Shown here in pieces: positions 1 through 22,784 of a stretch of DNA of 23,213 nucleotides. How positions within the stretch are numbered: position 1 is the first letter of the stretch; each line of letters opens with the position of its first letter. The position numbers and the translations under genes were made by a program. The notes beneath the pieces are model-generated. The model was not told the DNA's origin. It did no database searches and saw only the letters and a list, made by a program, of their open reading frames with translations. Origin of the DNA: a virus; the IMG/VR virus record IMGVR_UViG_3300044949_000876, positions 1 through 23,213 of that record; one strand, written 5' to 3'.

Positions 1-196
1 TGATCAGCTAGTGCTGGTGCCGGTTGAAAGGGTGAAGCCCGCGTCACCGGCGCTGCGCAGAGCTGGGGGATTCCCTCGGAACTGGGCCTGTCTCGGCGAT
101 CGGCTGCGGGTCGCTGCTGCTGGGGGGAGTTGGTGAATGAGTGACCCGCCTGTTTGGGCATCGCTGAGAGGCCTGGCGGGTGTTGCTGGGGTCAGG
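1..196 (-). other. left-edge segment, possible start of a gene running out of the window
   Basis: An ATG at 161 opens a frame that reaches the left edge without a stop (53 codons, MPKQAGHSFTNSPQQQRPAA and onward). It is hydrophilic and Gln/Pro/Arg-rich. Another minus frame is also open through most of the segment and stops at 6-4 but has no start codon. Neither shows convincing coding character, and no good Shine-Dalgarno is seen. An inverted repeat ACCCGCC (144-150) / GGCGGGT (175-181) is present without a T-run. Confidence 0.25.
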
Positions 197-16480: not shown

Positions 16481-19400
16481 CAGCTCAGCCCTGCCTGCCG
16501 CCTGGCGGTGGGGTTGTTGGTGATGCGTTTCTGGGCCAGTGCGGCGCCTTGCTTGGCAGACTCGCGGCCGATCCGTTGCGCCTCATCCCTGGTGACGAAA
16601 TCAAGCTCGCCAATCTGCACAGTCTCGAATCGGATAAGGCCATCGCCGCCGGCCGCGCCACCACCGGCCGCTGCGGATCCATCCATGCCACCCCGCTGGA
16701 ATGGCACGCTCAGGCCCTCCATGCCGCGCTGGAACGGCACGCTCAGGCCGCTGCTGGAGCTGGAGCTGCCGCCCTGCTGGGAGGCCTTGGCAGCGGTGGC
16801 AGCGGTGGCCTGGAACGGCACCGACAGGCCCCGCAGGCTGGCGTTGTTGATCGCCTCCAGCGCTTCGGTGGCCTCAGCCGGGATGATGCTGCCGGCCTGG
16901 TAGGGCACGAACAGCTCGGGGCCGTTCTCTCCGACTTTGTACGGCTGGCCGCTGGCGGTGCTGCCGCCGAGGGCGCGGGGGGCCAGGTTGGACGGGTCGA
17001 AGCTCAGCGAGGGTGAGAAGCTGCCAACGCTTTCCAGCGGGCCTGATGGTGCAAACGTCGAACCACCCCCAGCCACCGCACCCAGAGCCTTCAGGATGGT
17101 CTGCAGCGCGATCATGGCCATCTGCTTGGCGATGATCTCCGCGGCCATCTGCGCGAATCCTTGGGCCACGTCCTCGAAGAACCCGCTCAGCACCTGCCTG
17201 GCGCTCGCTGCGCCGCTGATCAGGTCGCGGAACGCATTGCCGAACGCCCCGCCGATGGTCTCGGCAGACTTGCCCGCCAGGGTGGCGATGCTGGTCATTT
17301 CAGCTAGGTCGTCTTTCAGGGTGGCGATCTGGGCCTCGATCGCCATGCCCTGGGTCTGGAAGGCAGCTGGCTCGGCGGCCTGGCTGGTCAGCTGCTGCAT
17401 CATGCGCACCCGTTCGGCCATCAGGTCGTTGATGTCCTGTTCGGCCTTGACCTGGGCGTTTTTCAGAGCGTGCTGTTTCTCCGATTCGATCCGCGCCAGC
17501 TGTTGCTCAGCGTTGTAATCGATGCCCAGCTCGACCAGCTGTTTCTCCAGCTCCTGAAACTCTCTCTTGACCTGAATCGCCCTGTCATTGATCTCCAGCT
17601 GCTCGAAGGCGTACTCCAGCCGGCGGCGATCAAGATCAGTCGTCGCGCCCAGTAGCTCGCTTTCTTGGTTGAGCTTGACGACAGCCTGGGTCCTGGCCTC
17701 GATGAACTTTTCGAGCTCGGTGGTGGCGGCTTGTTGCCGTTGCAGGAATTGTTCGGCGGTTTGCTGCGCCTCTTCGTAACCCGCAGTCGTGGCCTGTGCT
17801 TGTTCGACTGCCCCAAATCCGACGTTCTCCATCGATCCGCCGAAGAACGTGCTCAACGCCTTTTGGCGATGGGGGCCCATGTTGCTGACCCCGCTCACCG
17901 CGCTGGTGCCGAATGAGTCGCGGGCGTTGCGGTTGGCCTTCGGGTTGCCCGCCAGCACCGTGGTGTAGAGGTCCAGCAGGCTGGCGCCCTGAGTGCTCAT
18001 GCCGACGCCCTTGAACCGGTCCTGGAAGTACCGGACGACGGGCCCCATCACTTGCTCCTCAAACGACTGGTTCGGGCTGGCCCCGTACTTCTGCCGTTCT
18101 GGAGCACCGAACTGGATCAGCCCCATGTAGTTGTTGCCAGTGCCGCCACGAATAGACGGGCTGAACGTGCCGGCCGTCTCAAAGCTGATGATCGTCGCCA
18201 GGTCGAGCGGGCTGACGCCGAGCTTCTGAGCTGCGGCGACTAGCGCTTTGCCGCGGCTGGAGAGCTCAAACTTCGGAGCCGATCCTGCCGAGCCTCCCCC
18301 ACCACCACCACCCCCGCCTCCAGCCGCGCCTCCACCGCCAGGCAGCGCAGGCGCCGAGGGAGCGCCGGGGAGGGTGCCGGGGATTGGGGCAGTGGCGGGG
18401 AGTGCCGCGGCCTGGGGCGCTGCGCTGGGGCGGAAGTTCAGCGCCTGCTCCATGGCGCCGGCCATGTCCACGCCCAGCAGCTTGAGGATGCCTTGCATGG
18501 GGTTGAGCTGGCCCAGCATCTGAGAGATCAGCCGGCCCCAGTTGATCCCGATCGACTCGAACACTCCGCCGAAGATGGACTGAATGTTGATTCCCAGCTG
18601 CCTGAAGGCCGCGTCCACCGGGTTGAGCGTGTTCAGCAGGTTCTGCATTGCCTGCCGACCGACCGACTCCACGGCTCGGAATGCGTTCACCGCGAAGTTG
18701 CGGACGCTGGCGATAACCGCCTGGGCCCTGGCCGCCGCCGCCTGAACGTCTCGCTGCAGCGCCTGGAAAAACACCTCAAACCGGGCCGGGATCGTATTCA
18801 CGAACTCCCGAAACGGCTCGTTGAACTTGTAGGCCGCCGCCGTGGCCGCGATGATCCCGGCCGCGGCCAGCACCCAGGGGTTAGCCAGCACCGCCAAGTT
18901 CAGGCCTACTTGCGACTTGGTGGCGACGCCTGTTGACGCGGCATAGGCCTGCATGGCCTTCGTTGCAGCGCTGATTCCCCCGATGGCGCTCATCGCCGTG
19001 GTCAGGCCGAGAACAGCAACACCGGCGACGGCCGCAGCGGCTCCAACTTGTCTGACCGGCTCTGGCAGTTTGCTGGTCTGCTCTAGTATTCCGGTCGCCG
19101 CCTTGGTGAGCGCGATGGTGGTAGGCAGCAGCGATTGCCCGAACTGAATCTGCAGCTCCTGCCCCGCAATCTGCAGGTTGCGGAACTGCTGCGCCGGGCC
19201 CTTCATCGCCTCGGCCAGTTTCGGGGCACCGTCGCGCTCAATTCGCCCCAGAGCTGTGAGCACGATGTCGCCGGTGATCTTGCCCTCTTTCGCCAGCTCG
19301 CGGATCTGGCCGATCGGCACACCCATCACCTGGGCGATGCTCTGCACCACTGCCGGGGTCTGCTCAAACACGCTGTTGAGTTCTTCGCCGCGTAGCACGC

Positions 19401-20138: not shown

Positions 20139-20150
20139 TCAGGCTATGGA
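20139..20150 (-). repeat. gene-end repeat, copy 2 (12-bp core)
   Basis: TCCATAGCCTGA matches 12 bases of the 18-mer. Here the stop codon used by the GT frame is the TGA inside the motif, not the TAG. A CCTAGG palindrome follows in the gap before the tape measure gene. Confidence 0.5.
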
Positions 20151-20953
20151 TCTTGCCGCCCCCAGATACTCCAGCTCGATCAACCGCAGATCCTCCAGCA
20201 GCCACACCCGGTCCCGGCGCTTCACGCCCTCATCCTTGGCGCATTGGATGAACACCCCGTAGTCCAATCCCACAGGGCCATTCATCCCCACCCGCCACTG
20301 GGTCTGCAGTTTCAGGAACCACGCCAGCGCTTCGCAGTTCTCCAGCAGGATCCCGAACGTCTTGGGCCGCTGCTCTACCTCAGGCACCTCCAGGCCGAAC
20401 ATGGCTGCAGCGTCGGCCGCATCCCTGCCGTCGTCAGCATCACCCTTCGCGGCGCCAGCGAGGAACAGCGCCGCGTCTATGAGTTTTTTGCGCGGAAGCC
20501 TCCTTGCTTGGCGGCAGACTTGGCGGGCTCGCCGGCGGCGCTGGGCTTGCCGATACTGGCGACCCAAGCGTTGAAGATCGCCGACGCAGCGCCCTGCATC
20601 CGCAGCATCTTGGCCTTGGCAGCATCGGTGAACTCGACAGGCTCGCCAGCCTCGTCCACCACCTCTTCACCCCAGCCGCAGAGCACCTCGGCGGCCAGAT
20701 CCTCATAGGTGCACGGCAGCGGCTCGGTGAGCACCTCCAGGTCATTGCTGCCCCGGTAGCTCTGCAGCGCCTCGTAGCGCTTGATGGTGGCCACGATCAG
20801 CGCATTGTGCTGCTCGTTGAGCTCGTCGCAATCCTCCTGGTCCAGCACCCGGAAATGGGCGGTGAAGGTATAGGCCTTCTTTAGGCCCGCCTTCACCGGC
20901 AGATCAACCGATACCGGCCACTCGATGTAGTCCGGCTCGTAGAGATGGAACAT
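20139..20953 (-). CDS. tail assembly chaperone, -1 frameshift fusion (lambda gpGT-like)
   Basis: Predicted fusion of 271 aa: 157 residues from the G frame through the AAC codon at 20483, then 114 residues from the -1 frame to TGA 20141-20139. The T part begins LIDAALFLAGAAKGDADDGR and includes a hydrophobic aromatic stretch (CEALAWFLKLQTQWRVG). The -1 frame is open as far back as 20567, but the region before the shift reads as a low-quality Arg-rich translation (MGRQYRQAQRRRRARQ), so it is not an independent gene. In lambda the T domain links tape measure-bound G to tube subunits. The same arrangement is expected here because the next gene, 26 bases on, is the tape measure. The fusion is inferred from the nucleotide signal and the overlap. 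Confidence 0.8.
20448..20504 (-). promoter_or_regulatory. programmed -1 ribosomal frameshift signal
   Basis: In minus-strand order there is an internal Shine-Dalgarno AGGAGG (20504-20499), then nine bases, then the heptamer A AAA AAC (20489-20483) in the correct zero-frame phase (GCA AAA AAC). A 7-nt spacer TCATAGA contains the zero-frame TAG. It is followed by an 8-bp GC stem CGCGGCGC / GCGCCGCG (20475-20468 with 20455-20448) closing a 12-nt loop. All parts of a dnaX-type bacterial -1 signal are present at usual distances. Confidence 0.85.
20477..20953 (-). CDS. tail assembly chaperone, short product (lambda gpG-like)
   Basis: This 158-aa protein is the zero-frame product, beginning MFHLYEPDYIEWPVSVDLPV and ending at TAG 20479-20477. 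The sequence is acidic and helical in the middle (LDQEDCDELNEQHNALI) with a Lys/Ala/Gly-rich tail. Chaperones of this group coat the tape measure during tail assembly and are absent from the virion. It sits directly between the tail tube gene and the tape measure gene. Near its end the frame carries a slippery heptamer, so a fraction of ribosomes should shift to make the longer GT product. No clear Shine-Dalgarno precedes the ATG, and translation probably continues from the tube gene six bases upstream. Confidence 0.8.
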   Translation of the reverse strand: MFHLYEPDYIEWPVSVDLPVKAGLKKAYTFTAHFRVLDQEDCDELNEQHNALIVATIKRYEALQSYRGSNDLEVLTEPLPCTYEDLAAEVLCGWGEEVVDEAGEPVEFTDAAKAKMLRMQGAASAIFNAWVASIGKPSAAGEPAKSAAKQGGFRAKNS

Positions 20954-20959
20954 GGCGAA

Positions 20960-22153
20960 TCAGAAGAAAACGAGGCGGGTTTCGTCGTTGCCGGCCGCAG
21001 ACTTAGGCAGCGCGGTGAACGGGATCTGCAGCATGCCGACCCCGTCAGAATCAGGGAAGGAGAGGTCGCCGTTGATTGCTGTTTTGGGGCAGAAGAAAAT
21101 GGAGCTTTCGGTAGCCGTCGTGCCCTGCTGCACAACGAACGGGCCATCGCTGGCGCCGCTGTTGTCAGCCGCAGCGGTGAAGAAGTTCTTCGTCGCCACA
21201 GGCGGGTTTTCGATCGTGATTGTGCCGTTCGGGTTGGGGCGGTCGGTGATGCGGGCGTGAGGTTCGCAGCCGATCAGTGAGCGGAACACGGCCGACAGGC
21301 CCCAGTCGAAGGTGAAGCCTTCGGAGCAGGGATTGAAGCCCTGGAACCGCAACGCCTTGGTGTGGGTCGGGGTGACGGGCACCGGCTCGGCTTGGTTGCT
21401 GTAGACGAATCCTTCAGCGCTCTTTGCGGTGGGGGTGGTGTAGCGGCCGACGCCGGTGATGGTGAAGGTGCCGTAGCCGTTCAGGGTGCTGTTGAGGGCC
21501 GGGCTGCCGCGGAATCCTTCAATCCGGTGAACGTTGGTGCCGTCCTTGACCGCCACGATGGTGCAGCTGCTGCCGTTGCCGAACGTGCTGATCGGCTGCA
21601 GCAGGGACAGCGCGGGGATCTTGTAGCCCACTGCGCCGCCGGTGAACGATGCGGTGGAAGGAACCACCGTCACCTGCCTGGTGGCGCCGTCGTGCGCCAC
21701 GATCACGCCTTTGTGACCCGTGTTGGCGCCGCTGGTGATCTCGATTGGCAGCCCCAGGTAAGCGTCGCTTGCGGGGTTGCTGCCGCTCAGGTCCGCCAGG
21801 GTGAGGGTGTTGGCGCCGCCTGCGGTGGCCGTACCGGTCAGTTCGGCGAATGCCGAGACGTTCATCCCGGCTGCCTGCAGCAGTGGCGTAAACCGGGGGG
21901 CGGTGGCTGCAACGCCAGAGCCGCCCCACTCGAATGTCACTGTGACGGCGACGTGCTCATTGGTCAGCGGCTGGCGGTCGGCACCGAGGAACCCTTTGAT
22001 CAGGTTCCGCTCGACTCGGGTGCCGGTGATCGGGTTCACCTCCAGCGACACGATCTTCACCGCGTCGGTGTTGGCGATCGGACTGGCCAGGGTGCCGTAG
22101 CTGGTCTCGGCTTTCACCAGCGCAAACGAATTACGAATCAGGAGTGCGGTCAT
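20960..22153 (-). CDS. major tail tube protein
   Basis: This 397-aa protein begins MTALLIRNSFALVKAETSYG and has the beta-rich composition of siphovirus tail tube subunits, which stack as rings around the tape measure. Around residues 115-180 there is an inserted segment rich in Gly, Thr and Asp (EITSGANTGHKGVIVAHDG and following), of a type seen in larger tail tube proteins. The gene lies between the tail terminator region and the tail assembly chaperones, the standard place for the tube gene. Its start overlaps the stop of the preceding 46-aa gene, and its TGA is six bases from the next ATG. At nearly 400 aa it is longer than lambda gpV (about 246 aa), so it probably has an extra surface domain. 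Confidence 0.75.
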   Translation of the reverse strand: MTALLIRNSFALVKAETSYGTLASPIANTDAVKIVSLEVNPITGTRVERNLIKGFLGADRQPLTNEHVAVTVTFEWGGSGVAATAPRFTPLLQAAGMNVSAFAELTGTATAGGANTLTLADLSGSNPASDAYLGLPIEITSGANTGHKGVIVAHDGATRQVTVVPSTASFTGGAVGYKIPALSLLQPISTFGNGSSCTIVAVKDGTNVHRIEGFRGSPALNSTLNGYGTFTITGVGRYTTPTAKSAEGFVYSNQAEPVPVTPTHTKALRFQGFNPCSEGFTFDWGLSAVFRSLIGCEPHARITDRPNPNGTITIENPPVATKNFFTAAADNSGASDGPFVVQQGTTATESSIFFCPKTAINGDLSFPDSDGVGMLQIPFTALPKSAAGNDETRLVFF

Positions 22154-22314: not shown

Positions 22315-22332
22315 CCCTCAGGCTATGGAGCC
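22315..22332 (-). repeat. gene-end repeat, copy 1 (18 bp)
   Basis: The 18-mer GGCTCCATAGCCTGAGGG (minus strand) covers the TAG stop of the tail terminator gene. It is identical to the copy at 10110-10127 and precedes a 29-base intergenic gap. Confidence 0.6.
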
Positions 22333-22784
22333 GCGTTGATCGCGTCGTCGCGGGTGCGATAGCGGATCAGGAAACGGTGCTGCATCCAGCCGGCAGTGGC
22401 GTCGGCCTGTTCGTACTCCGGCCGCCAGCCATCGGGCTGCACGTCCTGGGCCAGGCCGCCAAGGGTCCGGTCGCTCATCATGCGGGCGTGCACGTCTACG
22501 CCGATCGGGTCGGCCAGCTGGTCGGGCACGTTGCCGCGCACGTAGATTTCGATCATCACCGGCAGCGCCTGATCGAGCCGGCCCAGGCTGGCGCCCGTGG
22601 TGCGCGGGGCGTTCACCGGGTTGTCCTCGCCAGGGCTGACGATCAGCGCCGGGGCCTCCGACCTAGAAAGCGCCTGCACCCGGCTGCGGTAGATCCTGAT
22701 GCCGACCTGCACCGTGCCGGGCAGGGTCACGGTGTGGATGTGGTTCAGGATCTGCTCTCGGAGGCTGGGGGCTGGGGTGGTCAT
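22323..22784 (-). CDS. probable tail terminator / tail completion protein (lambda gpU-like role)
   Basis: This 153-aa protein starts at ATG 22784 and ends at TAG 22323. It begins MTTPAPSLREQILNHIHTVT, followed by a mixed alpha/beta body with a central strand LPVMIEIYVRG and a C-terminal strand HRFLIRYRTRDDA. Size and secondary-structure pattern fit tail terminator proteins, which cap the tail tube and join it to the head. The stronger argument is position: first gene of the tail module, with only a 46-aa gene between it and the tail tube. A GAGG stands only one base before the ATG, so ribosome binding is unusual. The stop codon lies inside an 18-base repeat shared with the gene end at 10118. 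The role is inferred mainly from synteny. Confidence 0.55.
   Translation of the reverse strand: MTTPAPSLREQILNHIHTVTLPGTVQVGIRIYRSRVQALSRSEAPALIVSPGEDNPVNAPRTTGASLGRLDQALPVMIEIYVRGNVPDQLADPIGVDVHARMMSDRTLGGLAQDVQPDGWRPEYEQADATAGWMQHRFLIRYRTRDDAINAAP

Follow-up and report, generated by a model that had tools for sequence, protein, structure and literature searches.

The viral contig analysed here (IMG/VR record IMGVR_UViG_3300044949_000876; its 23,213 nt are referred to as the window), from a phage sampled as environmental DNA, almost certainly carries a programmed -1 ribosomal frameshift signal, through which two tail assembly chaperones, G and the longer GT, would be produced from one start. 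The anatomy of the sequence, the reading frames, their conservation and the signs of selection on three elements, namely an upstream Shine-Dalgarno (SD) sequence, a slippery heptamer and a downstream stem, were established directly. The frameshift signal and the tail genes are located on the minus strand (Table 1), where the open reading frames (ORFs) of G and T, in frames 0 and -1, overlap and directly precede the tape measure gene. G is placed between the genes for the tail terminator and the presumed major tail protein on one side and the tape measure gene on the other, and the gene order equals the U-V-G-T-H order of lambda. T matches both PF08809 (DUF1799, E 2.2e-11) and phrog_680 (E 5.9e-19), and its Klebsiella phage homologues carry the annotation tail assembly chaperone, while phrog_569, the family matched by G, carries only the label "tail length tape measure". 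An earlier interpretation made from the letters alone (the sequence-only reading) had identified a G/GT pair joined by a -1 frameshift, and this is strongly supported by the DUF1799 domain of T, the phrog_569 match of G, the tape measure gene that comes next and the tail terminator upstream. Foldseek returned no significant fold match for G, and a PDB sequence search with the G profile gave no match; comparison of G with the HK97 tail assembly chaperone 2ob9 in VIA-align 2 yielded a Z of 2.5 (rmsd 4.5, 84 aligned), with unrelated rows scoring higher Z. Among named phages, the closest match to G and the best match to the tape measure protein are both from cyanophages. Profiles of T and G found no relative in 84,980 prokaryote genomes, and hence no prophage or host was identified in that set.

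Table 1. Elements of the frameshift signal and neighbouring tail genes in the window.
Feature	Position	Strand	Basis
Tail terminator	22323..22784	-	phrog_4204, E 5.7e-31
Presumed major tail protein, 397 aa	20960..22153	-	synteny alone; without family match
G, zero-frame tail assembly chaperone, 158 aa	20477..20953	-	ORF; phrog_569, E 1.8e-8; synteny
SD-like stimulator AGGAGG, 9 nt before heptamer	20504-20499	-	sequence; wobble constraint; anti-SD duplex
Linker CTTCCGCGC, 9 nt, AGGAGG to heptamer	20498-20490	-	sequence
Slippery heptamer A_AAA_AAC (AAAAAAC)	20489-20483	-	read GCA AAA AAC in G frame
T, C-terminal domain of GT in the -1 frame, 114 aa and a stop	20139..20483	-	DUF1799
Spacer TCATAGA, 7 nt, heptamer to stem	20482-20476	-	sequence; contains G stop
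Zero-frame stop TAG of G, one codon past heptamer	20479-20477	-	sequence
Stem 5' arm CGCGGCGC, begins 7 nt past heptamer	20475-20468	-	fold
Stem 3' arm GCGCCGCG	20455-20448	-	fold; outermost pair covaries
Tape measure protein, 1210 aa	16480..20112	-	PF20155 (TMP_3), E 1.5e-32; many PHROG tape-measure families

The layout given in the sequence-only reading (AGGAGG, nine bases, a phased heptamer, a 7-nt spacer bearing the stop, and a stem) is correct to the base, and its product lengths were reproduced from the reading frames, with translation giving 158 aa for unshifted G and 157 + 114 = 271 aa for the shifted product GT. The heptamer sequence AAAAAAC occurs twice in the window against 0.33 occurrences expected from shuffles, A_AAA_AAC is the sole in-frame X_XXY_YYZ (Y = A/T) among the 13 minus-strand genes examined, and the exact arrangement GGAGG-N9-AAAAAAC occurs once in the window. 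That ribosomes slip here, how often they do so, and what G and T do are inferred. Most ribosomes would read GCA AAA AAC TCA TAG and release G, while a minority would move back by one base on A_AAA_AAC, pair anew as AAA AAA, continue with CTC ATA GAC across the junction AKN-LID and complete GT. The slip would presumably be promoted by pairing of AGGAGG, 9 nt upstream, with the 3' end of 16S rRNA, and by the GC stem 7 nt downstream, which would stall the ribosome. If their roles are as in lambda, G would coat the tape measure, and the T domain would recruit the major tail protein.

Relatives were gathered by IMG/VR scans with G and T, giving 41 distinct 120-nt contexts. With the exception of one contig, all IMG/VR relatives of G whose site can be read carry a phased A_AAA_AAC, followed 0 or 3 nt later by the zero-frame stop, and T in the -1 frame, and the A's of the heptamer are retained where its first codon, GCA, becomes TCA or CAA. 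Relatives without the heptamer, or with G and T in one frame, which had been named beforehand as findings that would speak against a frameshift, were thus not encountered outside that contig. In the contig concerned (L082 and L147), around position 1667, A5 replaces A6, a one-base deletion that would abolish frameshifting there; because L153, with the same flanks, has A6, this is likely a sequencing error, although unproven. Beyond these relatives, the DUF1799 pairs of further named phages all have T in the -1 frame and a heptamer that adjoins the G stop, namely A_AAA_AAC in S-LBS1, S-CBS1, HK639 and pAEv1818, and G_GGA_AAC in PS-1, Marilyn, BUCT603 and phiPMW. A canonical heptamer was not found at the junction of Klebsiella phage mtp13, for which the start was chosen automatically. 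Among the papers searched, none linked DUF1799 with frameshifting.

Synonymous sites were compared among loci picked by homology of the G protein and not by the presence of GG[AG]GG. Although 7% of Gly codons are GGA, this codon is used at the first Gly of the GG pair in 44 of 45 distinct sequences, and its wobble site there, which lies in the SD, has 1 inferred change, compared with 10 at the next Gly and a mean of 5.4 over the four-fold sites of G. The wobble site of GCA in the heptamer has no change against the same mean and the same adjacent Gly. Both sites are among the 5 slowest of the 33 four-fold sites of G (p about 0.02); V15, V90 and G93 are also slow, which tempers the evidence for selection on the SD. 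An unexplained synonymous constraint was likewise observed at codon 16 of G (20908-20906, minus strand), where GTT, a codon that accounts for 8% of those for Val, is invariant among all 42 sequences with Val.

Pairing with the anti-SD amounts to -11.2 kcal/mol in the window, -10.6 kcal/mol in the lone GGG variant and only -1.5 to -6.7 kcal/mol in distant DUF1799 phages, these energies being calculated with the standard bacterial 16S tail, from which that of the host may differ. GGAGG is conserved, and its spacing to the heptamer, 9 nt when one further base is counted with GGAGG, falls inside the published window of 9-14 nt for SD stimulators of -1 frameshifting (PMC5009743). In distant DUF1799 phages, an XXX_AAAC heptamer and the stop are present without a strong SD; the SD is therefore specific to the lineage of the window, where it appears to have been selected.

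The downstream stem consists of 8 bp, all GC, with a 12-nt loop, to which the minimum-energy fold adds 2 inner pairs (10 bp, 8-nt loop). Its energy alone is not extreme for such GC-rich DNA (z -0.24 over 91 nt, -1.6 over 40 nt, and -2.2 relative to synonymous recodings), in which the z-score of a whole-region fold is uninformative, and its support is carried by conservation. In every sequence, the stem is more stable than the average synonymous recoding, by 0.7 to 2.6 sd. At T columns 3, 4 and 10, which are four-fold Ala sites within the arms of the stem, there are 0, 0 and 0 changes in 46 sequences against a mean of 3.9 (p about 0.008), the wobble sites of both Ala codons in the 5' arm being unchanged throughout. 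The outer stem is formed by all 18 distinct downstream sequences, and its outermost pair covaries (C-G/U-A/U-G); however, the other 5 of the 6 outer pairs never vary, and the evidence from covariation is therefore thin. There are two main versions of the stem, the 8-bp form of the window and an Arg-for-Leu form with the inner stem re-registered around a bulge, both of which have the outer six pairs in common. The conservation of the three elements, proposed as a check in the sequence-only reading, can thus be described as follows: the heptamer, GGAGG and the outer stem are kept within the lineage, and a strong SD is absent in distant phages.

Other explanations of the overlapping frames were weighed against this evidence. 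T could be a separate gene, translated by reinitiation after the G stop with GGAGG as the ribosome-binding site, or from an internal start. SD sequences that serve translational coupling do occur ahead of many gene ends (PMC5009743), and an ATG is present in the T frame at MFGLEVPE; however, this codon is about 80 nt past the heptamer and encodes Val in many relatives, no ATG or GTG of the T frame is found near GGAGG, and conservation of the T peptide extends up to the first codon past the heptamer. Reinitiation would, moreover, have no need for an invariant, phased A_AAA_AAC, and a separate T gene is highly improbable. The same very low probability is assigned to transcriptional slippage, in which RNA polymerase would add or drop a base in the A6 run and the edited mRNA would be translated to GT. 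Such a run is present and slippage on A runs is known in bacteria, but the bacterial cases have been described on runs of 9 A/T (PMC5009743), whereas nearly all relatives, and four distant phages, have a run of six A's and then a C, and the G_GGA_AAC of other distant members is not a homopolymer. Transcriptional slippage also predicts no selection on an upstream SD or a stem, both of which show signs of selection.

It is also unlikely, if less remote, that the heptamer is the whole functional signal, with the SD and the stem arising incidentally from GC-rich codon usage and from conserved peptides (GG and AALFLAGAA). The lack of a strong SD in distant DUF1799 phages and a stem just modestly stronger than its synonymous recodings would fit such an origin, but it leaves unaccounted for the near-invariance of a rare GGA codon next to a variable Gly, the anti-SD pairing kept by the lone GGG exception, and the frozen wobble sites of the stem.

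Programmed -1 frameshifting of tail chaperones is established in lambda, HK97, L5, P2 and others, and chaperone pairs need not have an efficient shift. The window has in common with these systems the gene order, the 0 and -1 ORFs just before the tape measure gene, and a heptamer at the end of G with a stop soon after; unlike them, it has A_AAA_AAC, a DUF1799 T, and a strong, conserved GGAGG 9 nt upstream together with a conserved GC stem 7 nt downstream. The sequence-only reading expected the site to shift efficiently, but the shift may be less efficient than that, as A_AAA_AAC is a modest site in E. coli, weaker than A_AAA_AAG, although the host here may differ; in lambda, the G:GT ratio is about 30:1 (PMC5009743). 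For one tail-chaperone site, the assay of the GeneTack study gave 7% frameshifting (PMC3711429). Phages phiCbK (PMC3556154) and Loki (PMC5313236) have the same kind of gene pair, for which AAAAAAC has been reported as the shift site, and the Loki site also adjoins the G stop; these descriptions mention neither an SD nor a stem, unlike the window.

Stimulation by an SD plus a stem is established for dnaX and many IS elements (PMC5009743, PMC3711429). E. coli dnaX and IS3-type cassettes have the same order as the window, with an upstream SD, an A-rich heptamer and a downstream stem-loop, and the window shows the dnaX-type features of an SD within 9-14 nt and a stem-loop after a 7-nt spacer. However, the genes differ, and dnaX uses A_AAA_AAG with a shift of about 50% that gives a shorter product, whereas the shift in the window would give a longer one. 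The signal in the window is an ordinary but well-built example of the known lambda-type G/GT frameshift, with dnaX-like stimulators in an unusually complete set.

A search with the pattern AGGAGG-N8-11-AAAAAACTGA returned, among the matches listed, at least six unrelated gene pairs with the same layout (L225, L237, L240, L242, L256 and L272). Of these listed matches, L237, L256 and, weakly, L242 are phrog_313/8233 tail assembly chaperones, L225 and L272 are phrog_2115 tail proteins, and L240 precedes a tape measure gene; the sequences downstream of their sites fold weakly (-6 to -14 kcal/mol over 40 nt). Since unrelated pairs share the layout, an SD with A_AAA_AAC at chaperone sites is not unique to the window; the earlier description of its signal as richer than that of lambda is fair as a count of elements. 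The complete three-part set may be rarer than the SD plus A_AAA_AAC. In terms of coding context, GGAGG encodes Gly-Gly in the DUF1799 lineage, and AGGAGG is mostly found in the Glu-rich tails of the phrog_313/8233 and phrog_2115 chaperones. These six pairs possibly represent recurrent SD-stimulated chaperone frameshifting. At a likelihood that we place slightly below even, internal SD stimulation may have been gained separately in several unrelated phage families, tuning G:GT on a modest A_AAA_AAC lineage by lineage.

T and the presumed major tail protein (20139-22153 in the window, and relatives) are co-inherited, with a partial Mantel r of 0.84 given G (p 0.0005) in a sample of 31 loci, several of which are closely related. 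G, which lies between them, has been exchanged: within the group of the window its identity falls to 69%, while that of the presumed major tail protein is at least 93% and that of T at least 86%, and L036 provides a further example of exchange at the DNA level. This co-inheritance agrees with what would be expected of binding partners, and with the lambda model, in which T binds the major tail protein (PMC5009743). Co-inheritance of G with the tape measure protein was unsupported (partial r -0.004, 31 loci). Elsewhere in the window, a full-length match to abiF RNA (Rfam RF03085; 50.9 bits against a cut-off of 37) is present near the left end (144-180, minus strand), and any gene preceded by it on this strand would fall beyond the window edge. 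A tRNA-Pro(ggg) called by ARAGORN at 18376-18459 on the plus strand, antisense inside the tape measure gene, is probably a false positive, and Rfam gives no support for it.

Cyanophages S-LBS1 and S-CBS1 resemble the window in having DUF1799 chaperones, A_AAA_AAC followed by the stop, T in the -1 frame and a strong hairpin close downstream, which differs from the stem of the window but occupies the same place (z -5.2 and -4.3, respectively). However, their anti-SD pairing is weak (-6.1 and -3.6 versus -11.2 kcal/mol). Neither record has an annotated frameshift, and the two pieces are listed as unrelated proteins; in S-LBS1 (L193, 2995-3713), the chaperone G is annotated as an ABC-transport ATPase component. 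These records exemplify how GT is missed by annotation. Collectively, the window offers a clean, conserved case of all three classical -1 stimulators at one tail-chaperone site, and, with distant relatives that are missing one element, it forms a natural series in which to compare how the G:GT ratio is set by phages.
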